From the NCBI GenBank assembly GCA_025617745.1, contig CM046853.1, positions 52,353,021-52,417,020 on the forward strand: a stretch of DNA of 64,000 nt, read 5' to 3'. This DNA comes from Heliocidaris erythrogramma (Eukaryota > Echinodermata > Echinoidea > Camarodonta > Echinometridae). The translations under genes and the position numbers were made by a program. Shown here piece after piece: positions 6,001 through 50,100 of the stretch. Positions within the stretch are counted from its first letter, which is position 1. The number at the start of each line of letters is the position of its first letter. The notes under the pieces are model-generated. The model saw only the letters and a list, made by a program, of their open reading frames with translations. It was not told the DNA's origin and made no database searches.

Positions 6001-8539
6001 TGAATAATCCTGTGCGTTCCATTTACAAACCAAACAAATTCCATGTCAAAAGAAAACTCTGATCGAAATATCTAAAATCCAATTTGTCGAGAGCGCACAT
6101 CTATATTTGAAATGAAAAGAAACTTGATTTCATATTTCGTGATTTATTTACAGAAACGATTTTGACCTCGCTACGATAGACGGATTTGTTAAACAAGCCA
6201 CGGAAATAATTTCTGCCATCTTGATTTATGACCAATGCACTTTCTCGTGCCGCCATCGGATGAGGGCATGTAAAATGCCGGAGGACCAAAGGAAGTAAAG
6301 GGAGAGGTCTCAGAGGAGTCCTTATTTACCCCCATCCGGTCCCATTCCCATTTGGTCTTGTCCCTCCTTTTGATCTTGATCGTGTTTGTCAAATCCAGGT
6401 CTCTCTGACCATTATCACATCCAGGGACTTTTAATTCAGGAGCCAAGACCCACGGTGCCGTTTTATGGGGACAAATTGATTTCTTTTCAAATCTCGTATA
6501 TTCAGCACCGTGTCTGGGTGTTAAGATATTGTTAGTAATAAAATATTCTAGGAAAATACCAGTCCGTTCTCTTAAAGTGGCATTAAACTTGTAAAACCTG
6601 AACAGCGCCATCTTACAGAGACTGCTAAATTAAGATTATAATTTGAATATTAATTGCATTTTATTTTGAATTTTGAAAACAGCTTGTTTGGATAAAAGGC
6701 AGATTTCATATTTCAAACTATTATTTTTGACTTTGCATAATGTGGAAAATTGCCAACAGGTACATTCTAAGCTTCTACAAACTAGAATGAGACATGATGG
6801 GAAAAAGGCACAGACACTTTTCAAATCCTGTTAAAAGATGGTGCTATTTGGGAGCTTCAGTTTACTGTCACTTTAAAGCAGATCCCCAAAGTTTCATAAA
6901 CTAGTCAGAAGGGTGTTATAATTTTCAACAAAGTTGTATGATTTTTTTTCCACCTTGACTTTACCGCTGGTATTTTTGATAATGCTGATTTACAATGACT
7001 AATATTTGTAATGATCAAGAGTATAGTGTGGATGGGACAGGTTAATTTATAAATGTACTGGATATGATAATCTAAGATAATGATTATGAAGTACGTCAAG
7101 CAATGGCATTTTTTTACACCCGACGGAGAACAAAACAGAGACCCGTCGATATCAAAATCGACGCAATTTGCTCTCTCAACTGGCTCCACAAGACATTACG
7201 AGAAACTAAAAATGATAACAATACTTGTTTTAATAAAATAGACTCATTTTTAAGGGATCTTACAATAACAAAATACTTACTTTTTATGATAATGGAATTT
7301 CTTTTATAATTCTCTTTTAGTCCTTTTCATTTTCTCCTCCTCGTCGAAACTGAAAGCTAGCATTCAAGGTTTACCAATAAACGAATGTCATAAGATTCTT
7401 AGAAAGCTCATATCGAACAATATTCAAGTATCTATTCAATAAGTGATAGGTACAATCGAAAAGTAGAAAATTATTGATGATGCATTTTGCCTTTAACACA
7501 ACACAACCAAAAACATAATCAAGAGAAAATACTATACCGGTACATGAACTTGCTGACCTGAACTGCGAATCTATTCTTTTTCTTCATTTCAATTTCTATT
7601 TTGTTTTGCTACCGTAACTCTAAACTAAAACCAAATGGAATCTCGTAAACATATTATTATCATGAGCTTGTTTCAATCTGCCATATCAAGATCATTTTCT
7701 ACTTTCATCGTTTGTGAGTTAATGACACCATACTGGGAGGTAGCGGTAGGCGCACCTGGTGGTCCCAAGTTCGAAGCGATCCCGACCAATCTTAAACAAT
7801 GAAAATAATATTCGTGTGCCTTTGGGCAAGAATGGGATATATACGATGGGTTTTGTAAACAGCAGGGTGATCGATTTGATTGACAAGTGTGTGTCCAGGA
7901 TAAAGGCAGATCCGGGATATATAGTAGAAAGGGGTACAATGGAAAATCACAAGGAAAATACATGTAGTAGTGTTCGGAATTTGGGGTGCCATTTTACCCT
8001 TTTATTTTTAGGTCGATAATCTTAAGAAAAAAAAACTGGGGCATATTTTACGGGTTGTGCCACATGGGTTTCAAAGGGGAGGGGGCACGACCTGGTGATG
8101 CCCCCGCCCCAAATCTCCAGTTGCAATGGAATGGAAGACAGGGCGGGAGGGGGTTCAAATATTGATGAGGGATACTTTGGATTGGGTAATTTTGGGGCGA
8201 GATTATTAGGCATGGCACTGGATGGTTGGTGTCCATGCATATCACCTGTGTTTAAATGATTTTTTTTTTCATTATTATTTCATTTGATGTCAATGGGCTA
8301 GAGCCGCGAAGTAATAACTAGAAATGTGCATTCCTCGTGCCGCGCAATGCGAAATGTATCCCCCGGCGCTGGCAGCGATTTGAAGGAGAGACAAAGACCC
8401 TCCCCCATCCCCTCCCCAAACAAAAGGATGGTGTAGAAATTGCCGCCAGTGGCCCGGAATATTGTCAACACCAGGAGCAGCATTACCAAAACGATTTGTG
8501 TAGATTAGAGTATAATGCATTTTTATAGAAAATTCGAAA
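1..8539. other. Intergenic or intronic AT-rich DNA, no gene recognised
   Basis: Scattered short open frames here have no recognisable family features, no coherent splice sites and no coding bias. The longest are near 893-1276 (plus) and 6189-6611 (minus). A G-run lies at 3195-3203. I see no RNA gene. Confidence 0.5.
2752..3091. repeat. Imperfect tandem duplication (two copies, about 182-bp period)
   Basis: 2752-2911 and 2936-3091 share the same order of landmarks: AAnCCAGATTTnTGT, 'CAGTGACATCTG'-like, ATATCATTT, AATTATGTTAGACCT and a CACAGGA...GCTACACnGGTC ending in CGCAG. Divergence is moderate, so the duplication is not recent. Confidence 0.6.
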
Positions 8540-9654
8540 GAAATATGACCTCAGAGCACACATAAGACATCCACTAAAATATGACCTTTGATCCTATGAA
8601 AGACGGAACACTAGAGGCAGCATCACCAAAAACTGTAGAGGTGTAATCTATAATGGACCTACATACAAAATTTGAATGAAATCCGTCAAGAAATGCAGAA
8701 GTAAGAGTGCACAAAAGGGACAAATGAGCTTTGACCCTATAAAGGACGGAACAATGAGGGCAGCATCACCAAACAGTAAAGATGTGTAGATTATACCAAG
8801 ATACATCTCCATACAAAATTTGAAAGAAATCCATCAAGAAATGTGGCCTGCAGAGTGAACTCACGCCATCCCTTGAAGTATGACCTTTGACCCTATAAAA
8901 GATGGGACACTGGTGGCAGCATCACCAAAAACTACAGGTTTTTAGATTACACCAAGGGACACCTTCATGCAAAATTTGAACGAAATCCGTCAAGAAATGC
9001 AGAAGTAAGAGTGCAAGAAATGGAAAAATGACCTTTGACCCTATAAAGGACGGAACAATGAGGGCAGCATCACGAAAAATTAAACATGTGTAGATTATAC
9101 CAAGATACATCTCCATACAAAATTTGAACAAAATCCATTGAGAAATGTGGCCTGCAGAGTGCACTCACATGTCCTGAAGTATGACCTTTGACCCTATAAA
9201 AGACGGGACACTGGTGGCAGCATCACCAAACACTATAGGTTTTTAAATTACACCAAGAGACACCTTCATGTAAAATTTGAACAAAATCCGTTGAGAAATG
9301 TGACCGCCAGAGCGCACACAAGAGTACACACAAGACATCTATCAAAATATGACCTTTGACCCTATAAAAGACGGAACACTGGGGGCAGCATCACCAAAAT
9401 CTATAGGGTTCCAGATTTTACCAAGAGACACCTTCATACAAAATTTGAACAAAATCCGTTGAGAAATGTGACCGCTAGAGCGCACACAAACTTTCCCCAA
9501 AAATATGGCCTTTTACCCTATAAAAGACGGAACACTGGGGGCAGCATCACCAGAAACTATAGGGGTCCAGATTTTACCAAGATACACGTCCATAGGAAGT
9601 CTGAAAGAAATTCGTCGAGAAATGTGACCGCTAGAGCGCACACAAGAATGTGAC

Positions 9655-10059: not shown

Positions 10060-10690
10060 AGGTTGCTATGGTTACATATGCGAGCGTGCCTTGGGACACA
10101 GCGGTACACCCATTATGTCATGGCGTTTTAAACTTTCCCTTCTAAGGAATATGTAAACGTGAACGATAAAGACGACATAAAGGTAAAATCTACTGGATTT
10201 GGTCATTTCAAAACTTATTCTGCACTTCATTCTATAAACTTACAGCGCAACTATTCCTATGGAAATATGTTTTTACAGAAAGTTTCTCTTGCTATGGTTA
10301 CATCTGCAAGCTTGCCTTGGGACACAGCGGTTCATCCATTATGTCATGGCGTTTTGAACTTTCCCTTCAACGGAATATGTAAACATGAACGATAAAGACA
10401 ACATAAATGTAAAATCTACGCGATATGGTCATTTCATAACCTATTCAGCACTTCATCCTATAAACTTACAGCACAACTTTACCTTTGAAAATATGTTTTA
10501 CAGCAAGTTTATGTTGGTATGGTTACATCTGCACACGTGCCTTGGGACACAGCAGTGCATCCATTACGTCATGGCGTTTTAAACTTTCCCTTCCACGGAA
10601 TATATGACGATAACGACGACATTGTATAATACACATGATTCTGTACTTTCAAAACTTATTCAGCACTTCATTCTTTAAGCACAGGCAGAT
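10060..10690. repeat. 226-bp tandem repeat, about 2.7 copies
   Basis: Copies begin near 10084, 10310 and 10536 with GTGCCTTGGGACACAGCGGT-like sequence. Each contains CATTATGTCATGGCGTTTT, ACTTTCCCTTC, a GGAATAT...GATAA segment and CAGCACTTCATnCTATAAAC. Units are about 85-90% similar by eye. The three short open frames inside are frame coincidences shared by the repeats. Confidence 0.8.
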
Positions 10691-29145: not shown

Positions 29146-29677
29146 CATACTTGTGCATGATAGTGAATAATAGGCTGTACTGTGAAATGTATCATTTTTA
29201 AATATCATGTTTTCGAAGTACGTTCAGGTACATGAATTATGATTCTATGTAAAGCACTTATTTCCTTTGGCAATGAAATGTACTTTTATTTACGTACGAT
29301 CTTATTAATAATCGTCATGTTCAACCTGAGCTCAAGACCAATTGTGCTAATGACATTGAATAATGTATCAATCTTAAATGAACTAGTCCCTATTAATGAG
29401 AAGGTTGAGTTCTGGGAACGGTGAAAAATATTTTGTGAGCTTTCTCATTCCTTTTATGTCAGTTTGGAAGAACATTATTAGGAGAAATATCCCCTGAAAC
29501 GGATTGCTCTTCAAATGCCCTCATATTCGAAATATGACGAGAAAAGTTTGCAAAGATTTCATGCATGTGAAATTTCCAGTTTACTGTCTTCATAGCTTGG
29601 TAACATTTGTACAGGTTATGCTAATATTGTGCAAAAATGATGCAAATATCCAGTTTAAAGGTAAATTACTACATGTA

Positions 29678-31338
29678 CAGTTAACAACAAAATTATTCAT
29701 ACCCCTTGGAAAATTCTAGTTTTTTGCATTTTTCCTACAAATGAATGGTTAACTGAATTTAATTGCACATCACATGAATACATTTAGTTATCATCTGCAA
29801 ATGAATGCTGTTTCTGGTTTCACCTCATTTGCATAACAATAGAAAAGGTGAATTATCCAAACTGGGTGATGTTCAAAATTATTCATACCCTTGGTGATCT
29901 ATTGACTTTGTCAATCAGTATGAATTCAGTCCTTGTGATTAATGCTCGTAACACTTTCTTCACACTGTCACAATGCTTCTGGAGGTCTCTACTGAGATAT
30001 CAGGCCAATACCTGGTCTCCAATGGCCCAATCTCCTTGAGGATGTTGTCCACACATGCCATCACCTTGTCTTCAGGGGATCCGATGGAGTTAAAGCAGAT
30101 TTTGTGTTTGCAGGTGGTGTAGTTTTAGACGTCATGAGGATAGGACTATGATATTGATATTTTCGTTAATATTCCTTACATTTTAATGACAATTCTGTAT
30201 CTAAGTTGAAACAAAGCACTCTTCCTGGAGAGACTTCCCTAGAGGGATTCACAGTTGCACTGTCAAGGGAAGGTATTTCCTGATACTTTTGTTCCATTAT
30301 GTTTAGGGAGGCCATGGTAGTTGTCTAAAGGTTGGATGGTGCCAATTTTATCAGTTTATTCAGTTACACTGATTGACACATTTTTGATATGGACACCTGC
30401 AAGTGGGTACTCTAGTGAAGCTTAAAATACTGATCTTTATGTTCCAGTGCACTGTCAGACTGGTAGCATTTTGTGCACTGCAGCTGGTAACATGGAGGGC
30501 ATATGGTATAAATTTGGTTTACATTCATTTTGATATCAAGGATTGTAGCTTTCATACCAAAGATACAAGGAATATACCATATGAAGATTGATATACAGTA
30601 ACAGTCAATGTAGGATGTGTATGGTACTCAAAGGTTACATACTGTTATTCATGGTGACCTGACGTTAGAGTCATGAAATGACTTTAATATCACCAACATG
30701 GCCTTCCTGAGCACTCTGATTAAGATTGGGGCCAATGAATAAAGGTGAACCCTCCCAGAGGCAGTGCAAAAGGGAAGGGCTCCTCAGGAATGGTGCTTTG
30801 CATCATAAGTAGATACAGAAGTTTCATTAAAATGCATGGAATAAATGACCGAAAATTTCAATATCATAGTCCTGTCATCATGAAGTCGATAACTGCATCA
30901 CCTGTAGGACACGAAATCTAATGAACTCCCTGAAGGTCAGGTGAAGGCATGTGTGGACACATCCTCAAGGAGATTGAGCCATTGGACAACAGGTACTGAC
31001 CTGATATCCCAGCAGAGACCCCTCCGGAAGCCTTGTGACGGTGTATTAAATATAATAAAGTGAATTACAAGCATTAATCACAAGGATCGGATTCATACTG
31101 ATTGACAAAGTCAATAAATCACCAAGGGTATGAATAATTTTGAACATCGCCCAGTTTGGATAACTCAACTTTTCTATTGTTATGCAAATGAGGTGAAACA
31201 GGAAACGGCATTCATTTGCAGATGTTAACTAAATGTATTTAAGTGATGTGCAAGTAACTTCATTTAACCATTCATTTTTAGGAAAAATGCAAAAAACTAG
31301 AATTTTCCAAGGGGTATGAATAATTTTGTTGTTAACTG
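29678..31338. mobile_element. Tc1/mariner-like foldback element (1.66 kb, very long inverted arms)
   Basis: Terminal CAGTTAACAACAAAATTATT and its inverse at 31319-31338 are identical over at least 20 bases and flanked by TA on both sides. The inverted homology continues inward for about 600 bp per arm: CATTTGCATAACAATAGAAA with its inverse, GACTTTGTCAATCAGTATGA with its inverse, and a CAATCTCCTTGAGGATG segment with its inverse. A unique centre of about 450 bp remains. No transposase frame is intact. Confidence 0.85.
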
Positions 31339-32106
31339 TATGTTGGTACATGGTCATTTTAAATCGAAGAGTTAGTGATCTCTTAATGATCTGTGACTTG
31401 GGGCAATGTGATGCTACATTTTGCATGAGCAATGTATTCTTCAAAGTTATTCAATATCATATAAAAATATTAGAGTCATTTAATTAATCCATAATGGATA
31501 TATGTATTAATTGTAAACTACACCATTAAATACCTATGTAAGAATATGAATAGCCAATAAAGGTAGAAAAATATCAACATCTTTTCTGCTGTCATTCTAA
31601 CACACTGGAATTAATATTGATTTGGTTTCCTCCATCACAGCATCGTGCTACCAATCTTGTACGCCACATGGACTGTAACAATGCTACTATGCTGTATATA
31701 ATATACACCATATATCATATGCAGCAATGTCTCTATTTGCTTCAAAATATTGACCCTGGCTTTAGTTCCAGTAGCTCTTAATCAGCACACCATGCGTTGC
31801 AGGAATGCATTGCATCCATTCACTTTACCTGGGTCAAGAGAGACAACTATGGAAAAAATGCTCCACTTAAAAACATTCACATTTGTGAGGGATTTTTATC
31901 TTCCAGCTTTTCTGGATATCAAGATTATCAACCACGATACTATGGCATAACAAGGTTCAGGGGTAGTTCTGTCTCGGTGATGATAAGTGCTGAATTTGAT
32001 TTCCTGAGGACCTCTCACAGTTCTCTACATTCCCTCCTTGAGTTCAAGAGTTGGTGTATCAGCAGAACGTCCTATTCAGGAATGGGAGCCTTGAGTCTCA
32101 ATCTCT
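31339..32106 (-). other. CENPP: Probable 3' UTR and downstream flank of CENP-P
   Basis: This follows the CENP-P stop on the minus strand. The 31740-32106 part is less AT-rich than the rest. A possible ATTAAA polyadenylation hexamer on the minus strand lies near 31480. The two plus-strand open frames here (31750-31950 and 31797-32114) look like shadows of UTR sequence. Confidence 0.4.
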
Positions 32107-35100
32107 TTAGTTGAGAGCAACAGCTTTCAAGAAAGTGTCTAAAGCTTTCTCCACTCCCAGCGTATCCACCATATTCTTGAACTCTTCAGGAGCTCTGTTC
32201 AGCGTCTTGCTGGTGTCCAACTTGGCGACTAAAAAGATAAAAAGAATTCATTTGCTTTTGTAAAATTTACCTTTGGCAATCATCAAAATACAGAGATTTG
32301 TTAATTGAAAACAATTATGAAAAACAGTAGGATAGGATTTGAAACTACAGTAGGAGTTTGTAAAACCATCATAACAATTTTATAAAATGATGACGTAGAT
32401 CCTAATCAAATGGTTGGTTTTTAGTGGCCATGTGACGAGTCATTTATTTTTCCCCACACGTAAATTGCTCAAGACCTCAACTGAAGAAATGCAAGAGCTG
32501 TTGAGGGGAGCTGATGCTGTTAGTACAAAGACGAATATTAAGTTTGGCTATGCGAAATTCGAAATTATTTGGCTTGAAATAAACTGAATTATTTTAAATT
32601 GCAACTGACAGACCTCGCCTGGACGTTTTGTGTACTTTTTATTCAAGTCTCCGTTGCGAAGGTGATCAGGTATGGTGTATACAGAGACACTTTTTGGACC
32701 AACAAAACTTTGATATCTGTGACAGGGCCAACATTCTCATAAAGTGAGAGAATTTTAAAAGCTGTCATGATTTAGCTCCAGAAAGAAGACAAAGGGATCT
32801 ATCAAGCACAAAACTGCCATCTCAGCGAGTGACATGCAAAACCCTACTAAGCTTGATTGTGATACGCCTGCTGGATTACAGAACAAAGTCTTAGCTGATG
32901 TTATGATACTTCTGTAATTGTGGCTGGGAAAATCTTCAAGAACTGAAACCAGATGATTTTCTAGTTGAGGCAGATGACGAATGGCTTTGATACAACAGTA
33001 AGAGAGATCAGTTGACAAAGAATAATTGTGAAATGATGGTGTTATGTCGAACAGCGGAGTGATGTACGAAATACCGGGAAGTCCCTCAAGGTATCATGCA
33101 GTACGTATCAGAGCTGAACAAAGATTGCCCATTATGGTAAAAACCCAAAACAAAGAAGCCAAAAGATGGTGACTGCTGGTATAGCAATGTTCCAGTAGGT
33201 AAAAACACTAGGAAATAAGATGAAACAAAATTTCCAAGAAAGCAGAATGCACCAAACTGTACACTAGATCTAACCACTATTTCAGTCAGGGAGTCCATGG
33301 CCACTACAGTGAGCATGCATTCACTAAAGAATTCGTCGCGGATTTTACGAACCGGCACACAATGGAAGACGGTGCGGAAACTGTTTTCGAGATAATCGCA
33401 TTTTAAGTTTTCAGCAATTTTAAGCCTCAAGTTTCGTATGTTACTGTGCTCGGATACTTTAAAAAAATTACATGTGATGAGTACAAATTCCATATTTTCA
33501 GGATATATTGCTAATTTCACAAATAACTCATTATTTCTATGAAATATCCACCCTTGAAAAAGAGTGCCAGTTCGTGAAATCCATCTATTTTCTGAACGCG
33601 CATTTGTTGTGTACTGTACGCAGATTTCACGAACCGGCACAAATAAAGAGTGCCAGTTCGTGAAAGCCATTTCGCTAATGCGCGCACAATGCGCGCATAG
33701 TATTCTACGTGTTAACGAACCGGCACTCTATCATGTCTTCCAATTTATGATGTGTAATATTATCATGAAGCTGTTGCTACAAGATCTTTTATTTCGGGGG
33801 GGGGGGGCAAAATTTACAGACAAAATAATTATAATTGCTACCAACTCTATTTTCATGGGATTTATGTATCGAAGTTCCTCTTGATTCAGGGACAAAGGGG
33901 ACATCGTTTTCGCTTTGTATAAATATTAAATTTTCCCCTTCTTTCCTTCCTCTTTCTCTGTTTTTCTCATTTTTATTTCATTTTAATAGTAGGCCAAATT
34001 AAGACAGACCATTCACTTTTTAGGTAAACAAAGCATTACATTCTCAAATCATCAAGAACTTTACTTTTCATTCTTGTCATGCCATCTTCTCTCCAGCTTT
34101 AATCATATTTTCTGCAAAGATCACATTTCTCTCTCTCTCTGGCCCCCCCCCCCCCCGAGTTCCATTCTTCTCCCTCTCTCTCTCTCTCTCACTCTCTCTC
34201 CGCCTTCCTCTATCTTTCTCTCATCTTACAGAATAACCCATTGTCTATTTTCACAATTGGGTCTTTTGCTCCTTTTGGTTTTTTTTCCTGGCACATGACC
34301 CTTTTATATGAGATTGTCTTAGATAGTCAACATACTAATTTCCAATTCCTTTTTTTTTCCAAACGCCTTATTAGTCAATTGACAATCAGGAAAATTAATT
34401 TAACAAGTTTATTTACACTTATTTCCACATCAACTGCATAACAAATTAATTAAACTTTAGAAAAGAAAAATAATTCACTTCTCAATCAATTAGAGCAACG
34501 TTTAAGATGCCTTCAAAATTCACCTGTGATAAATTCATTACAGAAAAGTTTGAGATCCAATAAATACAAATAATGATTCCACAATGCAAATAGGAAAAAA
34601 AATTGTTATTAGTTATAAATACAATAATTCTATTTTTGAAAATTCATCAATAAAAGTGTGAATTCATTCAGGTAGTTTTAAAATCACTTGATTCAAAATG
34701 TCATGCATAATAGGCAAGAATGAAGCATGTTAAGTGCATAAATATCCATATCAAATTGAATCCACATTGAAATTCATAATATTCGATTACGACTACAACT
34801 GATTGGAATGCAATTTCATAAGCTTTAGCGACAATAATTCAGTATACCAATATTATGTTTAACCTAATGTAAATTCACCCAAAGTTTAGGGGGAGGATAT
34901 CCAAATACCTTTAGACCTTTGATAGAATTCTGAAACTGATTATATACAATTTTATTGCTCACTCACACGGCAGATTATCACAATTTTTGATAAATCGTAT
35001 TAAACTACAAAGTTGCTTTAAGGTTTTAAGATTTTTTTAAAGTTGTATTTTGAAAATAAATATGGAAATGTATCTGAATACACTTTTGTCTGTCAGAATA

Positions 35101-38100
35101 TTTTGTTCCCATAACTACCAGCCTTAAATGTATGATTCCAATTTCAAGGTAACAATATTAAAAACATCGATAAGCAATAACGACATGACCAGAATTTTAC
35201 GAAGATTTGTCGCACAGCTGTATCCCCCCCCCCCCCCCCCCCCACGTGCAATGGTGTAAGTGGGAAACATGAAAGTATTCATTGTGCTACCACTGACCAA
35301 CGGTTTCCTAATAGGAAGTATTCACAAAGCCCCACTGATAAAGGCCTTTAACACATAACATGTCACAGAAAGCGTCAGCATACATCTTGAAAAACAATCA
35401 GGAATTCCTGAAAAATCAGGAAAACATACATCCCTGCACAGGATTATTTTCATCAACTTGCGCACCTGCAAATGTGCATTGAAACCTGCAGATCTGGACA
35501 GAGAAGAAAGAATACAATAGCCTCGGATGAAAACTTTGCTTCACAATCAACTCGGAGGAGAGCATCAAAATGTAAGTGGACTAGAACTCCACGAGTACAC
35601 AGGCATCCTCAGAGGGAATATTTCATTGTAGTGATGTGCAACCAACCCCATAAGTGGTACAAGCTATACCTGGATAAAACAATAGTTTTAATATTACCTC
35701 ATTACTGTCCTGTTCACCATCAAATAATAAATTCTGTAAATATAAATATGAAGTAATTCTGAGGGAATAATTGTGATTGTTTATTTCATATTTTCTCTAA
35801 AACCTGGCTTTTCTCATTGTAATATTGATATTGTTATTTATTCTATAGATGTAACTTAAGCATTTAAGAAATTTCTTAGCTTCTGTAATACAAAGGTCAT
35901 AAAGAAAACTAATTATTACGATTGTTGAATTTAATTATATGAATGTGCAAAATTGCAGCATTAGTGTGCAAAGGGTTAAAGGAAAGACTCGTTAATTAAG
36001 CGTCTCATTCATGGGGCAAATTTTCGTAGAACTCTACAAGTTCTCTCTGCATGATTAGGGGATAGTTCCCTGAGCACAAACTTAACAGATCTTCATATTT
36101 CCCCGAAGCAAGCCTTGGTCTGGAAGAATACAAGACAGCCGGGGTACCAATATCAGCACAGGATACACTATCACTCTTGGCTGAACGAAGATTTCGAGAA
36201 TTACCCATTGTCAGAATACTGAGTTCGTCTTGAGTGTGGAATGCTTGAAAGCAATGGTGCTATCCTGACCCTTATCTACGCGGACCTGTTTAATCTTTGT
36301 CCAATCGATGATTGTGCCATCGTCTGCCTCCTTGTTTCTGAGGACACCAAGCGACTGACCATACGATTTCCAGTCACGGATTTCATGTGTTTGCACATGG
36401 TGCACGGCATAAGGCTTTGAGTGCCTTGCATCTTCAATGATGCTTGCCACTTGGCATGGGTGGTAGATGTTCTCTCGGCTTGAAATCCTTTTCTCTATAG
36501 CTGAGTGCATGCTATCCCCCTCTGACTGGCCATGGCTAGTCTCAAAGTAATGGACAGTGATTGTGCGGATGTTCTTTGATTTACTGAGAAAGAACTTAAA
36601 CATGGCAGGCAACACAGAATTTTTGTTCTGCCCTACGCACCCATCACAGTAGAAATCGACAGAGACTTTGTTTCCCCCATCAAGCTTCTCTAAATAATGT
36701 AGAAGATACGAGGATACCTCGCAAGATCCACGTCGTGTTAAGGTTTCGTTAGACAGATAACAAAAGCCTTCATGTGAAGCGAGATCATATATGGTGAAAT
36801 TATAACACGCCAGCCGGCGCTTATAGAAGATCTCCCCACGATTGGACTTCGGGAGATATATATTCTGTTGGAGGTCAAATACGGAGGCATTATGTGTTGG
36901 ATCTACCTCCGCACGTTTCTTTGACTCCTGTTTCAGAGTCCTCACCTTACCAATTTCTTCCCGGTGTTTCATGTATTTTTGGTGCAATTTTCTTTTATCT
37001 CCTTCATTTGCCTGGAGATAAGTCTCACAAAGCCCACATTTGTCTTTCTTGGGACGATGGATCTTGATATTCTCTTCTCTCATTACTTTCTTGTATAGGG
37101 AGAAGGAGCCACCCCCAGGAGATTCTTTTTTGTACATTCTGTACATCCTACTTCTTGTTAATTCGTGTGACACATAAGTGCACTTCGAAGTCTTTCTGCA
37201 ATAATGCGACTCCACTCTGGGAAATCGCCTGAGGTGCTCGAAGATTTTGCGCCTCTTGTAGTGTTGGGGTTTTTGTACACCCCCTCTTTTTTCCCCTTCT
37301 AGCACACCCGACTGCCTGTTTTTCTTGGAGAGGACAGTTCTCACCTGACGATATGCAATTCCAAGGGCATAAAGGAATGTCTTTCGGCAGACCTCTATAA
37401 CTGTTCCTGGGATAGTAGGATTTGGCAAAGTGTACTTTTTTTTACTACGTCTTGCTTGTCCTGTCTGGTGTACATGCCGCGCAATGTATTCTCTTTGCAG
37501 TTTGAGATTTGCCATTCCATAGAATTCTTCTCTAATGCATTTCAAAGCAGCATTGTTAAACAGTGCACAAGCTTTCTTATGGCTACACTTGATGCCTGCA
37601 CATTTTTCCTTTTCAACATTTTGCCTACCTTCTACATATTTATTAGATTTTTCAGAGTAATAAGATAACCCCCTGTTTCGATTGTATTTTACAGCCAGGT
37701 TTCTTGTCTTGGGACGGTGTGGAACTGGATTGTTGTCTTCATCGAACAAAGGCATAGTGTCATCCCCTACTGATTCATCTATGACGAAATCTTCTGGGTT
37801 CTCATCATCTGGCTCCCGCCGTTGAAAAGCTTGCATGCCCCTTTGTAACTCTACATATAACAATGAAAACAAAAATGGAAAAAGCTACATGAAGGACAGA
37901 AACTGCAAGCAAATTTTTATGCCATGAAAAAGACCCAAGAGATAAGAACCTTCAATACTCTATACTTTTAATTACAGATGGATAATTAATTTTTTGGCTA
38001 CTGGGGATTCCATAATTCAGTAGTCAGTGGGTTAAAAAACAAGCAAGTCATGCTAAAGAATACTTTTATGAGGAAATTTACCCCCTTCTGATTCAGAGCT

Positions 38101-41100
38101 AGTGGACATTTCTTCCTCCTCCTCCTCCGACTCTTCTGACTTGTCATCATCAGTTCTCGTTGATGTGGCATCTGGAAGACAATGATAATCAAAAAGAACA
38201 AAAAGGTTAGATTACATACAGTGTAATATAAATCCAACCCGCTGCACCTTTGTTTCATCCATATTCTAACATAGAAATTATTTTTCCAAGTGTTAGGCTT
38301 CGGAAGTGGATATACATGTAAATGTAAGGTTCAGTTAACAGCAGAAACAGCAATGTGAATATCCCCCGCCCCCCCCCCCCTTTAAAATCAAAGACTGATA
38401 GGAATAAAAAGTACATTTACAATGAAGTTCTTCTAAAATGGTATCATACTGAAAGAGCCCTGATAGCAGAAAGTGGTAAAAATTGCGTGATATTTACGTC
38501 GTGGTTTTCGTCTTTTTTACGTCCTGTAATTACGTCAATAAGACGACAACTTGCACCAACGCAAGACGTCAAGAGGACGTCTTATTTTGACGTCATCTGT
38601 ACACTGCAAAAACTGAAGTGCTGAGCACTTTTTGAGGGCATGCATAGGGACTGCACTCAGAGTGCTATTGAATGCACACAGCGTGCTATTTCAGCACTTT
38701 CATGGGAGCTGGACCGGCTCCTTAAACTGCTAAGCATTCATTAAAAAATGATTTGGGCGAGCTTCGAACCAGGGTCCGCTGATCGAGAATTGCTGGCAAT
38801 ACCGCTAGACTAACTCACATTGTACGATTTAGAGCAGATCATATTGTTACATAGTGAATTTACGACACCACATAGTTCATGTTATCTACTTGACTACCAT
38901 TACTAAACAGGATAGCAAGAAACATTTGTTAGTCCATCGGTAACGTCAGCGCCTCTCAATCAGCGGAACCTGGTTCGAGGCTCGCCACGCTCACATTTTT
39001 TTTTGCTGGTAAATTAGCACACTACAAGTGCTATAAACAGCATTTCAGATGCAGTCACTATACATGCCCCTAAAATTAGCACTTTCTTACAGTTTTTACA
39101 ATGTACAAGACGTAGAGATGACGTCAGAATAAGACGTCCTCTTGACGTCTTGCGTTCGTGCGAGTTGTCGTCTTATTGTCGTAATTACAGGACGTAAAAA
39201 AGACGAAAACCACGACGTAAATATCACGTCATTTTTCAACACTTTCTGCTATCAGGGAGATGATATTGAGTAAGGATACTAATCTTAGGTAATCATTGAT
39301 TTAAATTGTAATGAGATTTCTTTTAATCATGAAGCAGTATTCTGTTTGTCATCACTGCACGACGGAAAAAATGCAATAACCAACAAAATAAAATTGACTC
39401 ACTTGTGTGCGGTTGCATTGCTTTTTCATCAGGTATGTCTGCATACTCCAGCTCTTTATTGGGGATGCTGTAAATATCATCCCATGTCAGGGCAAAATCC
39501 AAAGGAACAGCAGATAGGACTGAAATAAATACAAATAACAATTCACTGTCTTGCACAAAATATAAAGATAATAACACAGATTTTAATGCAAAAAAAATTA
39601 GCTCACTCAATCTGACATCTTTCTTAAGGATGCTTTATTAAAACTGTGTTATATTTGCAGTGGTATATTTTTATCAACTTCACAAAGGAAACCAGCTAAA
39701 ATACTTATAAATACCAGAATGGGCTTAACAAAATGTTTCAAGGAACATGAGAATTGATGAATGTAAATATGTCTAAATATTTCTAAGTAACCAATAACGG
39801 AAATGAAACTCACGTTCAAAACAAGCGGAACTACCTCCAGGTTGGTCGACATCCAGTAATGCAATCTGAGCCTCATGAATTGGCCTGCGTGCATGTTCAC
39901 TACTGACTCCTTGACCTTTGTTAGCTTTAACTCCCTGAAGTTGGTCGGCTGTAAAGGTTTAAGAATAAAAAATGTGGAAAGCATATTTGATTAAGAGAAA
40001 ACTTTAACAGAATACAGTTTACTTTTTTTGATAGCATTTTATTGTTATACCATAGAAAAGCCCAATGACATTACTAGTATAAGCTATTACTACATTCTAT
40101 ACGGTACTCACATTCAAGAGAATCATGACCAGTGTATCAAGAATAACATAAAGAACTGGCAGTTCTGATTCTGCAGAATAGTCATATGTATATTATCGTT
40201 TGTTTAGTTTACCTTAGTATTCTTGTCAAAATCCCTAGCAAAGATAAGAAGTTATTATTAGAGCTTGAAGTAATAGTATTTCAGAGTGTTAAATTTTCAT
40301 GTACATACCAAGCAACGCTAACGGGACATCATCCTCAGGTTGGTTGACATCCAGTAATGCAATCTGAGCCTCCTGAATTGGCCTGCGTGCATGTTCACTA
40401 CTGACTCCTTGACCTTTGTTAGCTTTAACTCCCTGAAGTTGGTCGGCTGTAAAGGTTTAAGAATAAAAAATGTGGAAAGCATATTTGATTAAGAGAAAAC
40501 TTTAACAGAATACAGTTTATTTTTTTGATAGCATTTTATTGTTATACCATAGAAAAGCCCAATGACATTACTAGTATAAGCTATTACTACATTCTATACG
40601 GTACTCACATTCAAGAGAATCATGACCAGTGTATCAAGAATAACATAAAGAACTGGCAGTTCTGATTCTGCAGAATAGTCATATGTATATTATCGTTTGT
40701 TTAGTTTACCTTAGTATTCTTGTCAAAATCCCTAACAAAGATAAGAAGTTATTATTAGAGCTTGAAGTAATAGTATTTCAGAGTGTTAAATTTTCATGTA
40801 CATACCAAGCAACGCTAACGGGACATCATCCTCAGGTTGGTTGACATCCAGTAATGCAATCTGAGCCTCATGAATTGGCCTGCGTGCATGTTCACTACTG
40901 ACTCCTTGACCTTTGTTAGCTTTAACTCCCTGAAGTTGGTCGGCTGTAAAGGTTTAAGAATAAAAAATGTGGAAAGCATATTTGATTAAGAGAAAACTTT
41001 AACAGAATACAGTTTATTTTTTTGATAGCATTTTATTGTTATAGAATAGAAAAGCCCAATGACATTACTAGTATAAGCTATTACTACATTCTATACGGTA

Positions 41101-44100
41101 CTCACATTCAAGAGAATCATGACCAGTGTATCAAGAATAACATAAAGAACTGGCAGTTCTGATTCTGCAGAATAGTCATATGTATATTATCGTTTGTTTA
41201 GTTTACCTTAGTATTCTTGTCAAAATCCCTAGCAAAGATAAGAAGTTATTATTAGAGCTTGAAGTAATAGTATTTCAGAGTGTTAAATTTTCATGTACAT
41301 ACCAAGCAACGCTAACGGGACATCATCCTCATCGTCAGGTTGGTTGACATCCAGTAATGCAATCTGAGCCTCATGAATTGGCCTGCGTGCATGTTCACTA
41401 CTGACTCCTTGACCTTTGTTAGCTTTAACTCCCTGAAGTTGGTCGGCTGTAAAGGTTTAAGAATAAAAAATGTGGAAAGCATATTTGATTAAGAGAAAAC
41501 TTTAACAGAATACAGTTTATTTTTTGATAGCATTTTATTGTTATACCATAGAAAAGCCCAATGACATTACTAGTATAAGCTATTACTACATTCTATACGG
41601 TACTCACATTCAAGAGAATCATGACCAGTGTATCAAGAATAACATAAAGAACTGGCAGTTCTGATTCTGCAGAATAGTCATATGTATATTATCGTTTGTT
41701 TAGTTTACCTTAGTATTCTTGTCAAAATCCCTAGCAAAGATAAGAAGTTATTATTAGAGCTTGAAGTAATAGTATTTCAGAGTGTTAAATTTTCATGTAC
41801 ATACCAAGCAACGCTAACGGGACATCATCCTCAGGTTGGTTGACATCCAGTAATGCAATCTGAGCCTCCTGAATTGGCCTGCGTGCATGTTCACTACTGA
41901 CTCCTTGACCTTTGTTAGCTTTAACTCCCTGAAGTTGGTCGGCTGTAAAGGTTTAAGAATAAAAAATGTGGAAAGCATATTTGATTAAGAGAAAACTTTA
42001 ACAGAATACAGTTTATTTTTTTGATAGCATTTTATTGTTATACCATAGAAAAGCCCAATGACATTACTAGTATAAGCTATTACTACATTCTATACGGTAC
42101 TCACATTCAAGAGAATCATGACCAGTGTATCAAGAATAACATAAAGAACTGGCAGTTCTGATTCTGCAGAATAGTCATATATATATTATCGTTTGTTTAG
42201 TTTACCTTAGTATTCTTGTCAAAATCCCTAGCAAAGATAAGAAGTTATTATTAGAGCTTGAAGTAATAGTATTTCAGAGTGTTAAATTTTCATGTACATA
42301 CCAAGCAACGCTAACGGGACATCATCCTCATCGTCAGGTTGGTTGACATCCAGTAATGCAATCTGAGCCTCATGAATTGGCCTGCGTGCATGTTCACTAC
42401 TGACTCCTTGACCTTTGTTAGCTTTAACTCCCTGAAGTTGGTCGGCTGTAAAGGTTTAAGAATAAAAAATGTGGAAAGCATATTTGATTAAGAGAAAACT
42501 TTAACAGAATACAGTTTATTTTTTGATAGCATTTTATTGTTATACCATAGAAAAGCCCAATGACATTACTAGTATAAGCTATTACTACATTCTATACGGT
42601 ACTCACATTCAAGAGAATCATGACCAGTGTATCAAGAATAACATAAAGAACTGGCAGTTCTGATTCTGCAGAATAGTCATATGTATATTATCGTTTGTTT
42701 AGTTTACCTTAGTATTCTTGTCAAAATCCCTAGCAAAGATAAGAAGTTATTATTAGAGCTTGAAGTAATAGTATTTCAGAGTGTTAAATTTTCATGTACA
42801 TACCAAGCAACGCTAACGGGACATCATCCTCAGGTTGGTTGACATCCAGTAATGCAATCTGAGCCTCCTGAATTGGCCTGCGTGCATGTTCACTACTGAC
42901 TCCTTGACCTTTGTTAGCTTTAACTCCCTGAAGTTGGTCGGCTGTAAAGGTTTAAGAATAAAAAATGTGGAAAGCATATTTGATTAAGAGAAAACTTTAA
43001 CAGAATACAGTTTATTTTTTTGATAGCATTTTATTGTTATACCATAGAAAAGCCCAATGACATTACTAGTATAAGCTATTACTACATTCTATACGGTACT
43101 CACATTCAAGAGAATCATGACCAGTGTATCAAGAATAACATAAAGAACTGGCAGTTCTGATTCTGCAGAATAGTCATATATATATTATCGTTTGTTTAGT
43201 TTACCTTAGTATTCTTGTCAAAATCCCTAGCAAAGATAAGAAGTTATTATTAGAGCTTGAAGTAATAGTATTTCAGAGTGTTAAATTTTCATGTACATAC
43301 CAAGCAACGCTAACGGGACATCATCCTCATCGTCAGGTTGGTTGACATCCAGTAATGCAATCTGAGCCTCATGAATTGGCCTGCGTGCATGTTCACTACT
43401 GACTCCTTGACCTTTGTTAGCTTTAACTCCCTGAAGTTGGTCGGCTGTAAAGGTTTAAGAATAAAAAATGTGGAAAGCATATTTGATTAAGAGAAAACTT
43501 TAACAGAATACAGTTTATTTTTTGATAGCATTTTATTGTTATACCATAGAAAAGCCCAATGACATTACTAGTATAAGCTATTACTACATTCTATACGGTA
43601 CTCACATTCAAGAGAATCATGACCAGTGTATCAAGAATAACATAAAGAACTGGCAGTTCTGATTCTGCAGAATAGTCATATATATATTATCGTTTGTTTA
43701 GTTTACCTTAGTATTCTTGTCAAAATCCCTAGCAAAGATAAGAAGTTATTATTAGAGCTTGAAGTAATAGTATTTCAGAGTGTTAAATTTTCATGTACAT
43801 ACCAAGCAACGCTAACGGGACATCATCCTCATCGTCAGGTTGGTTGACATCCAGTAATGCAATCTGAGCCTCCTGAATTGGCCTGCGTGCATGTTCACTA
43901 CTGACTCCTTGACCTTTGTTAGCTTTAACTCCCTGAAGTTGGTCGGCTGTAAAGGTTTAAGAATAAAAAATGTGGAAAGCATATTTGATTAAGAGAAAAC
44001 TTTAACAGAATACAGTTTATTTTTTGATAGCATTTTATTGTTATACCATAGAAAAGCCCAATGACATTACTAGTATAAGCTATTACTACATTCTATACGG

Positions 44101-47100
44101 TACGCACATTCAAGAGAATCATCACCAGTGACGATGTCGATTATTTTCCCCGCCCACCAAGTGTGTCTGCCCCTCATGCGCACTCTTGTGCCTTTTTTTA
44201 TGTGTTTTTGTTTTGAAGTTATCTGGAGATCTTTCAAATTGACGATATTGACACTTCCATTTCTTTTCCATTTAACCAGAACATCTGGCTGGACTGTAAT
44301 GGAAATGGACAAGTGGAGAGAATAGTAAAAAATAGTAAAACAATGTAAAACTTCCAACAACAACAAAATGCATAAGTCTATTTGTTCGTTCATGCTCTTG
44401 CATTTATGTACAGTGCAGAGAGAAAAGAATCTCTTATTATGGGCCTTATAAGATTATTATTATAAATAGTTGAGGTAGTAGTAGTACTAGTAGTAGTAGT
44501 GGTAGTAGTAGTAGTAGTAGTAGTAATAGTACCAGTAGAAGTAGTAGTAGTAGTAATAGCAGTAGTAAAAGTATAAGTCTTAAAAAACAATATCACAAAA
44601 TTGTATTTAATTTCATCGTACTGAAAATTGTCAATTTTACAAGAGAAAAAAAAGATATTCCTGAAACTATATATATATGCAAGTACAGTGTATGTTTGAT
44701 GCTGATTACTTTTCATGTTATCATTTAATGAATACTTAGATGACCAAACATATGTATTAAAGAAGGCCCTAAGCTATAGAGACAGACTAAGCCAATGACA
44801 GACATTACCGTTCTTCTCCATCTCCACTATGCAGTAGTCACCCAGTCACTGTGAAAGAAAGAAATAAATGAACCATGTTCACATCTAATGTAGATGATAG
44901 ATCAGAGGCGGTGCCAGATGATGGGAGGGGCAAGATGACATACTAAATTCATTGAAGTTTCAAATGCATAATAGGGGTGTCATGTACAATTGCAAGCCTC
45001 AGGCCTTTCTTTTACCACTTCTTTTACTCTCTCTTCTCTCTCCTTTCTCACTTTTTTTTCAGTTGTCACCTGAAAATTCACAGGGGGTGGGCGGCTCCTG
45101 CATCCTCATCTAGCGCTACCCCTGATGTACATGTAGATTAAACTATGAACACATTGACTCTACTTTATCGAAAGAAAGACTTTCTATAATGCAGTTAATT
45201 TTAAGCAAACATGTTATGAAAGATATCTGAATCCATTGAAGACTGACATGCATAAAAAGATAGAGATAGACCTCTATTAAATACAGTTGCTTTATCTTTG
45301 TATTTATTTATCAATATCCCAATTCAGATAATTTTTTTACAAAATTGCTGCATGCAGGACGGGAATGATTTTCATTAAAGACATTAAAATATCTTTACTT
45401 AGATCTAAACTATAGTATAGATTTAACATTTTTAAAATTGTTTTTGAACTGCATCCCACTGACACTTTAACCCATATTAACGTCCAGACTAAACATTAGA
45501 CTAGGCTCATTTATTATGTATCAATTATTTTAAGCGGCAATGTTGTTTGTCTACTACAACTTTACAAAGAATATGTAGACTCTATAAAAAAAATTGAAAA
45601 CATTTCAGATTTACTTAGTGCCGATTGGCAATCGTTTCAGTAAAAAATTGCCCCAAAGACAATAGACAATACATCTAACATAACAGTTAGGATAGACCTA
45701 CGTTAGATTCTACTTTTACGTGGGTACCGAGTTCAGTTTGAACAGTTCAGTTCAGTCTTATTAATATTGCAGCCTAAGCCCGCTTAGCTTAAGGCTAAGC
45801 TAAACTGCATGATTAAATTACAATTTAAAAACATTCACTATTTACAATAACATCATAACATATAATATATATACAAAACACAATAAGAAACAGACATAAA
45901 TAATTACGTACAGTACTTAAATACACTCAGATTGATTAGGCCTAACCTAGACTAGAGCCTGGCAGAATAAACAGGCTAGACTATCACTAGGGTCTAGGCC
46001 TAAACACTCCAGAGTCAACATCAAAATTGCTAAAAGGCGTTAGGCTTATTAAATAACTGAGAGGTTTATTAAGAGTTCAAAGGATATCTATAGTAGATGT
46101 ACTAGAGTTGTCTAATTAAGGCCTAACATTAGGCCTAGTAAGTAGTAGTAGTAACTAGGCTGGGGTTGAAACAGTTCGTTATTATCACTAAAAATAGTAA
46201 TTGTTGTAAGAAATAAAGCGTTATACCATTGCTATAACTATAAGCCTTTGAGTTTGAGTACGTCCTGAAAATTAGTACCACAGATAGACTACCATTAAAA
46301 CACGGCTAGCCGTACGTTTACGGGCCAACTTCGGGAGAGTTGGGGGAAGAGAAGAAAACCCAACATACATGGCAACGTATGGGTCTACATCATCTTTTAC
46401 TAAGTTTTAGGGAGATTTTTTTTCTTCTTGTTTGCTTTGATGCAACAAAATTCATCATTATGCAAAGAATATTACATTAGCCTAACTATACCACATTTAA
46501 AAATGACTTTGTACTTACTTTAGAATGATTCTAAAACAGGCAACGAATCCTGTGCCAGTTCGTAAAAACTCTCCGATTTTTCCGTTTGCTGGTAGCGTAC
46601 TGGTACATGGTACACACCAGCACACTGTCTGCGCTACCTGCATGCCTATATATAGCCTACATAAGTACCGGTACGTATTAGTATAAGTTCGGATTTCACG
46701 AACCGACACAAATAATTTGTGCCAGTTCGTGAGAGCTTCATTTTGCACGCGCAAGCAGTGCTATGGATTTCACGAACTGGCATTCTCTACGAGTGCCGGT
46801 TCGTGATGTCCGAATTTCGCAAAAACGCGATTTTTGGACACTGATTACTTTTTACAATACCTGTATCTCAAAAAATATCAAATATCATGAACTGAAATTG
46901 GGTGAAAATGTAGATTTTGATATGGTCTTTCATAATATGTAAAAATCTCAAAACTCAAAATTTACACGTAAAATGGTATTTGTGCCGGTTCGTGATGTCG
47001 GCGACGAATTACTGTAACTAGCCATGAGCGAAAGAAACATATGACTTCACACCTTGAAAGTCGGTACCAGTTATGGATCCTGATCCTGGACCATGTCCAA

Positions 47101-50100
47101 GCAGGCCTAATCTTGCCTAATCCATGCACATGACAAGGCAGACACTGGAAATCATTCCTAATAGCCAACAAAATGCACTTTTAAATCGTGACTCAGATAA
47201 TGTACATGTTAATATGAATTCCCATCAACAACTTTCTTATTCGCTATCGCAGGAAAAGATACATCAAGACATTGTGATGACTCCAAATACTACACTAAGT
47301 AATGTTCCGGACAGGACTCTGTGCATATGTGTTGGACTTCAACTGTTTCAGCTCTTTCACCTTCCATCTGCTGTTTTCAAGTTGCACTTTTGGAAGACAA
47401 ATTTTTGATTTGGACCTTGATGGTTCTATGCCTAGATCTACCTTTAGATCTAGACTAACATTACTTCTAGTCTATGTGTGTTTTTCAAGTTGGAGTTTCA
47501 CACTGACTTGCATGTTTCCTGATGGATGTTCCTGTTCATGAAAATAATGTATGTAAACATGAAAAAACTTTCCCCATTATCATTTTTCTCCATTTAACTT
47601 TTAACTTGTTATGAAATTTTGGAATCTAGATATGTTAGCTCTAACAGTTAGATGTAAGATCGATATATAGATCTAAAGCTAGACTATCTGAGATCTAAAG
47701 TTACCTTTGAGATGAGAGTGTTTATCAAACGACAAGGATCCACGTCATTTTATAAAACAAATTATACACATCATATCTTCGGTTCTGTTTATACAGTGCC
47801 AACACAGTGCAAAGCCTGTTCCAAAGGTACCTAGTGTGGGTAATTCTTACTCATGTCCTCACTGATATATATTATTCTACATTGAAATGACTAACCTTCT
47901 TTGGCTGATTTAACAGATAAGCTGACGTCTGGTGCACATCTGCCTGATCCGGCTACATCTATCCTCCATGTGATGGTGTAGATAATGCTGAAAGATATCA
48001 AAACCGAATATACAATCATCGCCATGATATAGATATGATAATAATAACCCTAATCAGAGAGTATATATAAAGTTGATTCTGTTGTTTTTAAAACAAAATG
48101 AACTTCAGGCTGACGATGGAGTTTGCACGACTACGAAACATGTACCATTCCTTAAAATGCTATGTTTTCTTTGTTGTTTTTATTTTGAAACTGTTATCGT
48201 GTCGTTCTTTTGGAAATAACCCTAATGTAGTACGAAGATACACAAAATGTACATGGTACTGTTGAGTCACGAAAAGTCTAACATGGAATGAGAGAATAAG
48301 AGTTGAAAGGATAAAGACAGATGTGTTCAAGATCTACAGGTTCTAAAACAGTCACTGCAACAACAAAACAGTATGGGTTTTCTTTGGAGCCTTTTTTCAG
48401 CAAAATTTCATTGTAATCACAGAGGAATGTATGTTCAAACAAAATACAAGTAAAATGCATTATCTATACAAATACAATGCCATCATGTAGTTAAATAATG
48501 ATAATATGCATCGGGCTTATACAGTTGTTTACACATAAAAATTCTAGAAATCATGAAGTGATATCTATAATAGAAATCATGCAGTGATATATATATTTGC
48601 AGCTTTATTTGCTCGCAATATCATATGAAAAATGTATGTTTCTACTATCAAGTAGCATACCACTGTAATAAAAAGATCTAGAGTCAAATAATAGCAGTAA
48701 TATTACACTTGATGAAATTGTGCATAAAATACCTGAATACTATGCTGTTCACCAATATGCATACAAAAAGCTTGATAATTAGGGCACTGAATGCAGTGAT
48801 GATGTGAAAGGGAGAAATTATTCAATGAGTGCTAATATAGAACCTGCAATGTCCCAAACAAGATGACTTAACTTTGGGGCTGTTGACAGGGGAAAACTTA
48901 CCCACTTTGCTGAGGACACATAATCTGAAGGATTGTTCCGTCTTGGCCTCCTGGTAGGCTCACTGTCTCTGGATATTCTTTCTGTAATGTGAAAACATCA
49001 TAAATAAATAAGGAAGAGTCTGAAGAAACTCTTGCTATAGCTATTTTCTAATAACTGTAGATTAAGATACCATTGACCAGGAATGATGGAGGTTGATAAA
49101 ATACCATAAAGCCAGAAACTTTCATGATCTGTAAACAACAGTTAGTTTCACAGCAAGAAACTTTTACGAATTGCAAAAAAATTCAGTGTTATGTCAGTTG
49201 TGAAATCAATTATTCCACGGCATGAAACTTTTGCGAATGTGAACCCCTCTCAACGTTTGTGAACATTTCATTTGGGTGAAAGTTTCTGATTTTAAAGTCT
49301 ACAGGACCGTAATCTTAGAATAACTTAAGTCTAGAGATTCTCTAGTGAAACAGTACCAGTTACTCCTGGCTTTTAATACTTTGTTGTTTTACTATCAGTC
49401 TATAATAGAATTTGTTAGTGTTTTACAGCCTCAAGTCTGATGAGTTGTTTGTTCAAAGTCAAAAAGATATTGTTCAAGGTTCAATTTTTATTGATCAGTC
49501 TATTTTACTATCAGTCTATTATAATAGAATTTGTTGGTGTTTTACAAGCTCCTGTCTAATAAGTTGTCTGTTGAGAGCCAGTAGGGCATTAGCTTTAACA
49601 TCCAGTTAACAGCAGATGTTATGTGCGCTATATAAAAGGGCAAGCCCAGGCTATTTTGTCTCCTACGTTACAGACCATACTAAAATTTTATTAAGTTAAT
49701 ACATGTAGCCCCACTAGAGCTTAGATGGGGAGCGTTTCATCAAGCGTTTTGTCAGTGATTTTTACTGACAACTGTTATAAGCTACTGAAATCATTGCATC
49801 TGATTGGCTGAGAGCAAAATTGTCAGTAAAAATCACTGACAAAACGCTTGATGAAATGCTCCCCAGGCCAAATATGGAATAAACTGACAGATTTGACATC
49901 AATGTACATGTATGTTCATAACTCCACAATACTTGGTAATGTATGGGACACAAAATGACCAAATTCCTCAGACTTTCAAACAGTAGCATCTGATGAAGGA
50001 CAGCTAGGTTACCATGAAATGTGAGAAGATCCTGACCCTGTGTTGGTACCACCTGGCGTAGTCTGCATAACCCCTCAGAAACGGCTGCAGGTCACACCCT

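Follow-up and report, generated by a model that had tools for sequence, protein, structure and literature searches.

A probable accordion-like exon array in the transposase-like gene of a Heliocidaris erythrogramma DNA transposon

Tandem units that change the length of a protein are known from host genes, and tandem units of other kinds are known from transposons. In human LPA, the kringle IV type 2 (KIV-2) coding variable-number tandem repeat (VNTR) comprises 1 to ~40 highly homologous units of 5.6 kb with two exons each, and the number varies between alleles (PMC11462820). In human segmental-duplication genes, the number of internal tandem repeats alters protein length, mostly in frame (PMC2812944). 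The Tetris foldback element of Drosophila virilis is a DNA transposon whose internal tandem repeats also form longer arrays (PMC4079207), and Sola2 elements, with an 888-amino-acid transposase in Dictyostelium fasciculatum, have short imperfect inverted ends and AWWT target duplications (ATAT, AAAT, ATTT) (PMC3627910). Here we describe a locus in a 64,000-nucleotide stretch of the sea urchin Heliocidaris erythrogramma (GCA_025617745.1, contig CM046853.1, positions 52,353,021 to 52,417,020), hereafter called the window, in which nine tandem exons lie between a Tudor-like exon and a transposase-like core. Very probably, the array forms a linker of variable copy number within a transposase-like gene carried by a cut-and-paste DNA transposon, and it is lengthened and shortened like an accordion.

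As in LPA, the units at this locus are near-identical tandem copies of exon plus intron that keep the reading frame, with inclusion of the exons being predicted here. Unlike LPA, a host gene encoding folded kringle domains, the gene described here belongs to a transposon, has one short exon per 0.5-kb unit, and shows variation between insertions or at a duplicated site only. The repeats of human segmental-duplication genes also lie in host genes and have shorter units, with coding ones up to 228 bp in Table 2 of PMC2812944. Tetris, as described in PMC4079207, is apparently nonautonomous and carries its repeats in the inverted ends, whereas the repeat here is an exon of a transposase-like gene. 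By analogy, the array may work like a coding VNTR with introns that has been placed in a transposase-like gene. Among the titles listed by literature searches that reached few subscription papers, none concerned an exon array in a transposase gene.

Tandem Repeats Finder (TRF), run on the window, reported one array at 39838 to 44130 with a period of 497, 8.6 copies, and a 98% match. Its 497- or 502-bp units place nine exons on the minus strand between 39814 and 43946. In gene order, the repeat exons are found at 43803 to 43946 (exon 1, 144 nt), 43301 to 43444 (exon 2, 144 nt), 42804 to 42941 (exon 3, 138 nt), 42302 to 42445 (exon 4, 144 nt), 41805 to 41942 (exon 5, 138 nt), 41303 to 41446 (exon 6, 144 nt), 40806 to 40943 (exon 7, 138 nt), and 40309 to 40446 (exon 8, 138 nt), followed by a terminal exon at 39814 to 39948 (exon 9, 135 nt). 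All nine begin and end in phase 1, have GT-AG borders, and have an open coding frame; the acceptor TTTACAG is present in all nine, and the donor is GTATGT in eight and GTGAGT in the ninth. An initial annotation of the window had proposed eight near-identical copies of one exon plus a diverged ninth, all splice-competent and in phase 1-1, that would together add about 421 residues of a repeated peptide ending in an acidic DDVPLALL motif. The TRF match and the exon borders confirm the copies, every unit retains its acceptor, open exon, and donor, and the exon lengths sum to 1263 nt, or 421 residues. DDVPLALL closes eight of the exons, while the ninth has the same body and a different tail, GGSSACFE. 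This ninth exon had been called diverged, a description that fits its last 24 nt, to which the difference is confined, and not its body, which is 98% identical to unit 1 over 111 nt.

Pairwise identity of the array units in the window is 98 to 100%, and the exons of the eight tail-bearing units differ in length by six bases only. Units 2 and 4 agree at every position over 503 nt, as do units 3 and 5 over 496 nt, exon and intron alike, indicating that a two-unit block was copied whole. The repeat homology begins inside the Tudor-like exon (44130) and ends inside exon nine (39838), so both edges of the array fall within exons. The GC content of unit 1 is 0.49 in the exon versus 0.29 in the intron. 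NCBIfam had no match for one repeat unit. A match of the repeat peptide to Cel124_C above its cut-off (E value of 8e-7, with three consecutive repeats as the query) was taken as a putative repeat artefact.

The setting of the gene differs from the one assumed. It is not one host gene but sits inside a multicopy DNA transposon of 13,673 bp (33334 to 47006), in which it occupies the minus strand, flanked by AATT target-site duplications at 33330 to 33333 and 47007 to 47010. The low-coordinate end (33334 to 33726) contains an imperfect terminal inverted repeat and five copies of the 15-nt motif TTCACGAACYGGCAC (33344 to 33726), and the high-coordinate end (46552 to 47006) contains six copies of the motif (46552 to 46996) and the other terminal inverted repeat. 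At two or fewer mismatches, the motif has 11 matches in the window, only in the transposon ends, compared to 0.11 expected from shuffles. The imperfect inverted ends begin with CGTCG, and the outermost 30 nt of the two edges (33330 and 47010), when one is inverted against the other, agree at 26 of 30 positions with AATT included, or 22 of 26 without the duplication; beyond them the similarity drops abruptly (7 of 20). Best matches between 40 random 1-kb pairs were 19 to 24 with one exception at 29, so the inverted arms alone are not conclusive.

The outer ends were proposed from the window alone, before any other insertion had been found. A genome search revealed five further insertions in the same 1.06-Gb genome that share these ends, each with direct 4-bp duplications. 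The homology limits of these five insertions coincide with the proposed ends, and the whole unit of gene plus ends spans 10.8 to 15.8 kb across the six places. Target duplications are AATT in the window and ATAT, AAAT, ATCT, ATCT, and AATT elsewhere, for six insertions at five distinct sites. The flanks of the two ATCT copies are alike (98.2% over 6.1 kb and 97.4% over 2.3 kb); these copies represent a single insertion that lies within a segmental duplication, and the contig that bears both holds them 0.44 Mb apart (C15, 29.71 Mb and 30.15 Mb). With its terminal inverted repeats and target duplications, the element has the structure of a cut-and-paste DNA transposon. The AT-rich 4-bp duplications and the short imperfect terminal inverted repeats (22/26 nt) resemble those of Sola2, and the Sola2 section of PMC3627910 mentions no linker exon array. 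Four of the five sites fit AWWT (AATT, ATAT, AAAT, and AATT), while ATCT and the ACAT of a relative on C11 do not. Because one of five sites misfits and the likeness concerns ends and target duplications, not transposases, the element was not assigned to Sola2.

The number of exons differs among the six insertions. The window copy and one other have nine exons, and the rest have 7, 4, 3, and 2; the terminal exon is present once and always last in all six, which leaves each insertion with 1 to 8 exons that bear the acidic tail. The initial annotation had considered variable copy number likely, and such variation is seen here between six insertions of one genome. The window copy and the copy on C12 are 99.85 to 100% identical in the two stretches compared, and the order of their unit variants differs. 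The two ATCT copies, at one duplicated site, have arrays of 4 and 2 exons, showing that arrays diverged after insertion. An additional ~5.5 kb of DNA sits ahead of the first repeat exon in the 2-exon ATCT copy, within the intron that follows its Tudor-like exon.

In every copy the final unit is without the spacer found between the other units, which points to unequal exchange. Exchange between homologous units would add or remove units, at times two together, and the reading frame would survive since each unit bears one symmetric exon. Acceptor and donor are kept in 34 of 34 exons of the six copies, and phase in 33. If all units were spliced, the resulting transposases would gain ~90 to 420 residues in the region that links the Tudor-like domain to the core. 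The accordion mechanism is well supported. Six insertions in one genome, with predicted linker lengths that differ by whole exons, offer a natural series for the birth of an exon array, its pace relative to point mutation, and the effect of linker length on a transposase, and an older copy suggests that the exon was made from two neighbors.

When the 5' portion of the gene served as the query, the six young copies and two diverged ones, on C6 and C9, were among the matches listed; the other listed matches cover only the array-repeated part of the query or a GTA microsatellite. Identity to the window copy was 98.8 to 100% in all copies over 44140 to 46030 and 35760 to 38450. The element-wide comparison of the copies used the 25 longest rows per locus that exceeded 60 nt and lay outside the array. 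Downstream of the gene, at 33916 to 35747, four copies (C13, C15a, C15b, and C2) are only 91 to 92% identical to the window copy, compared to near 99% for the remainder, with ~96% at the end adjoining this stretch and ~100 nt lost or gained at its edges, and C12 is 99.6% identical throughout. The copies fall into two types, one comprising the window copy and C12 and the other the remaining four, by subfamily divergence or recombination. An 800-bp inverted-repeat insert in a gene intron (38458 to 39257), similar to a miniature inverted-repeat transposable element and with 125-nt arms (94%), is covered by matches to the five other copies, the right arm being matched twice in four of them, and was therefore carried along. 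The C9 locus (C9:11707294-11709254) is a rearranged old copy in which pieces of the core lie on the opposite strand to the Tudor-like and exon pieces, and which has one recognizable transposon end.

The predicted gene runs along the minus strand in the order short first coding exon, Tudor-like exon, nine repeat exons, linker exon, acidic Ser/Glu-rich exon, and long core exon, with splicing predicted from borders, phase, and composition. Every intron in this model is in phase 1, so that any internal exon could be repeated or skipped without a change of frame. The predicted first coding exon (ATGGAGAAGAACG, 44809 to 44821) was placed by frame and donor, and the 81 nt surrounding it are identical in all six copies. 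It is followed by the Tudor-like exon at 44108 to 44293 and, beyond the array, by two phase 1-1 exons: the linker exon at 39403 to 39519, within a 146-nt stretch identical in all six copies, and the acidic Ser/Glu-rich linker exon at 38082 to 38171, within a 116-nt stretch that is also identical in all six. The name Tudor is our assumption from the sequence pattern. Pfam gave no match above cut-off for this exon, and its best PDB match had an E value of 0.4. The chromatin-reader-like fold that the initial annotation saw here is kept as conjecture, which Pfam and PDB do not support and in favor of which a similar domain occurs in four of five fetched relatives.

The core exon (36211 to 37850, minus strand) is open for 545 codons. 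Its proposed transposase-like character is supported by Pfam DUF7869 (PF25273), which matches residues 390 to 505 of a 557-amino-acid reading frame at 27.1 bits, just above the cut-off of 26. We take the core to have a catalytic D-D-D arrangement. In two of the six copies, core and C terminus share one open frame of 614 codons. In the window, the C-terminal part (36005 to 36259, minus strand) is in another frame than the core, so this copy is broken between the two or the assembly has an indel there. A short intron as the cause of the frame change was rejected, as inspection by eye revealed no pair of splice sites that would fit the phase. The core had no notable match in PDB, and as a query it found no relatives in IMG/VR or GTDB contigs (pattern-based search) or in phages. 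No paper on DUF7869 was found, and GQNKN gave chance literature matches only. Rfam at gathering cut-offs found nothing at 33000 to 47400, and no tRNA was present.

Of special interest for the origin of the repeat unit is the copy on C6, which is diverged and decayed and, by eye, has an apparently older layout. Its Tudor-like exon continues past the point where the exon ends in young copies, into DDEDEDHVPLA and a GTATGT donor. The intron behind this donor is the one also found after every array unit (89% identity, 507 columns), and the inter-unit stretch resembles the tail of the C6 Tudor-like exon plus this intron. A simple tandem exon duplication was set aside, the inter-unit stretch having no source elsewhere in the window beyond 13- to 14-nt matches. 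The unit is instead best read as the product of a tandem duplication that took in intron 1 and whose breakpoints lay in the acidic tail of the Tudor-like exon and in the body of the next exon. The junction would have created a chimeric phase 1-1 exon that consists of linker body and the acidic tail of the Tudor exon. A later deletion would then have brought sequence of the old intron onto the end of the Tudor-like exon, supplying a new donor; by comparison with C6, the last ~22 nt of the exon are such sequence, and a copy of it with the donor is present in every array intron. The 59-nt AG...GT stretch in each of the eight internal introns can be understood as a by-product of this origin.

When the core was used as a query, dozens of loci in the same genome were among the matches listed, mostly at 22 to 61% identity. 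Upstream sequence was fetched for five of them: C11 (56%; C11a), C10 (59%), C15 (55%; C15c), C11 (47%; C11b), and C17 (46%). A Tudor-like exon is present in four of the five, with best tblastn E values per relative of 0.002 to 6e-9, each against one 9-kb stretch. All four Tudor-bearing relatives have tandem repeats between this exon and the core, and in two of these four, several exons end in a similar tail. C10 has no Tudor-like domain and only TRF units of ≤26 nt in 9 kb. For comparison, the window outside the array has three other TRF places with units of >30 nt.

The C11a element matches the layout of the window element, with ends that begin with CGTCG and an ACAT duplication on both sides. 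It has a 452-bp array at 96% identity and six repeat exons of 237, 96, and four times 327 nt, all divisible by three and in phase 1, followed (by eye) by a terminal exon that lacks the acidic tail. Among the six repeat exons, one no longer has its GT donor. The repeat exons end in EMDIPLSLF or EMVIPLSLF and the Tudor exon itself in DMDIPLSSF, while their bodies are unrelated to those in the window and are built of 11-residue repeats. In C15c, four predicted exons end in DIPLAEL or DIPLADL, and two of these contain 36-nt repeats. C17 has a 69-nt repeat present 17 times in one open frame upstream of the DUF7869 core (7583 to 8773 of the fetched stretch), and C11b has a 96-nt repeat present three times in an open frame. 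A further 148/304-bp tandem repeat in C15c (6.44 Mb; 2047 to 3530 of the fetched stretch), between the Tudor-like exon and the later repeat exons, is closed in all three sense frames.

Several observations weigh against the accordion-like linker as a whole or in its parts. We infer from sequence only that the repeat exons enter transcripts, and the 59-nt intron segment would break the frame if it were spliced in. Codon usage in the repeat exon is a weak indicator, with 1.6% of background windows and 8.5% of stop-free ones scoring as high and another frame of the exon scoring nearly as high. Of the 34 exons, unit 5 of C13 contains a stop and exon 9 of C12 a frame break, and four of the six cores, including that of the window, are frame broken. 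Substitutions were counted in 28 units from six elements, comprising tail-bearing units of the young copies with gaps uncounted, and fell in 5 of 144 exon and 13 of 360 intron columns. This is an equal rate, and it agrees with the earlier statement that introns are as conserved as exons. All five exon substitutions are nonsynonymous, one of them to a stop, though five changes would not sustain a separate test. Units differ by 0.43% within and 0.50% between elements, and 468 of 5,000 label shuffles gave a difference as large, so homogenization inside each element is not supported; of the two options in the initial annotation, recent or homogenized amplification, recent is favored. The stretch of 91 to 92% identity shows the six copies to be heterogeneous, with recombination or subfamilies involved. 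The history of the unit, finally, is suggested by a single older copy, itself decayed. Young arrays appear near neutral, and their copy number seems to drift without detectable constraint on the units, while on a longer time scale the tail in relatives, acidic residues followed by PL (acidic-PL), argues the opposite way.

Much of this evidence would also fit a satellite-like expansion of DNA without protein consequence, in which splicing would bypass most units or the gene no longer works. Variation is equal in exon and intron, two of 34 exons contain a stop or frame break, only two of the six cores are open, and tandem arrays inside DNA transposons are known from Tetris (PMC4079207). This alternative has a real but lesser chance of being correct, as it does not account for acceptor and donor being kept in every exon and phase in all but one, or for the C11a repeat exons, which keep phase 1 and lengths divisible by three with one donor lost in six. 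At the other extreme, the array could be a selected multivalent module, each unit adding an acidic [DE]-x-[VIL]-P-L-[AS]-x-[LF] peptide that would bind a partner such as a host factor or another transposase subunit, with length tuning the binding. Behind the Tudor-like domain, relatives with only 46 to 56% identity in the core (C11a, C11b, and C17, and more weakly C15c) have an acidic-PL stretch, and acidic-PL ends repeat exons in three lineages (that of the window, C11a, and C15c). In the five fetched loci, the pattern has 1 antisense match versus 13 sense matches, and of these 13 one is not an exon end and several are non-independent repeat copies. We regard such selection as doubtful, because the 28 young units carry no signal of it, with protein-changing substitutions at all five exon sites (too few to test), and because open cores go with short arrays (4 and 2 exons) and broken ones mostly with long arrays (9, 9, and 7, the fourth having 3; n = 6). 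A related, lineage-wide proposal is similarly tentative and improbable as it stands: the linker between a conserved chromatin-reader-like domain and the catalytic core would be a standing hot spot where exon arrays or in-frame minisatellites arose time and again, each multiplying a short acidic-PL peptide or a linker repeat, with array length as a rapidly evolving tuner of the engagement of chromatin, a host factor, or the protein itself.

The remaining explanations are far less likely. An assembly artefact, with copy number inflated or copies collapsed, is conceivable in that one assembly was used, array length comes from the assembly instead of reads, and frame breaks could include sequencing indels; arrays of differing length with different unit variants in different flanks, and a relative with an array of its own, make it very unlikely. 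Single use of units by mutually exclusive splicing is hardly to be expected when the units are 98 to 100% identical and several together keep the frame, so that no choice is forced. A domesticated host gene with a coding repeat, lying near unrelated transposon ends, would fit the many introns and the separate Tudor-like domain. It was rejected on the basis of the transposon ends and five further insertions, since a 10.8- to 15.8-kb unit of gene plus ends at six places with direct 4-bp duplications makes it the least credible of all. A variable linker within a transposase-like gene, which unequal exchange would lengthen and shorten, remains our preferred reading.

Other repeats were also found in the window. 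A diverged tandem repeat of ~150 bp is present in 5 to 7 copies that are 71 to 79% alike (8467 to 9647), and a 226-bp tandem repeat is present in 2.4 copies with an 88% match (10062 to 10678). A large inverted repeat at 29676 to 31340 is 84% identical over 582 columns, with arms ~0.5 kb apart, and a hairpin-like element at 49726 to 49865 has 46-nt arms that are 98% complementary and separated by 48 nt.

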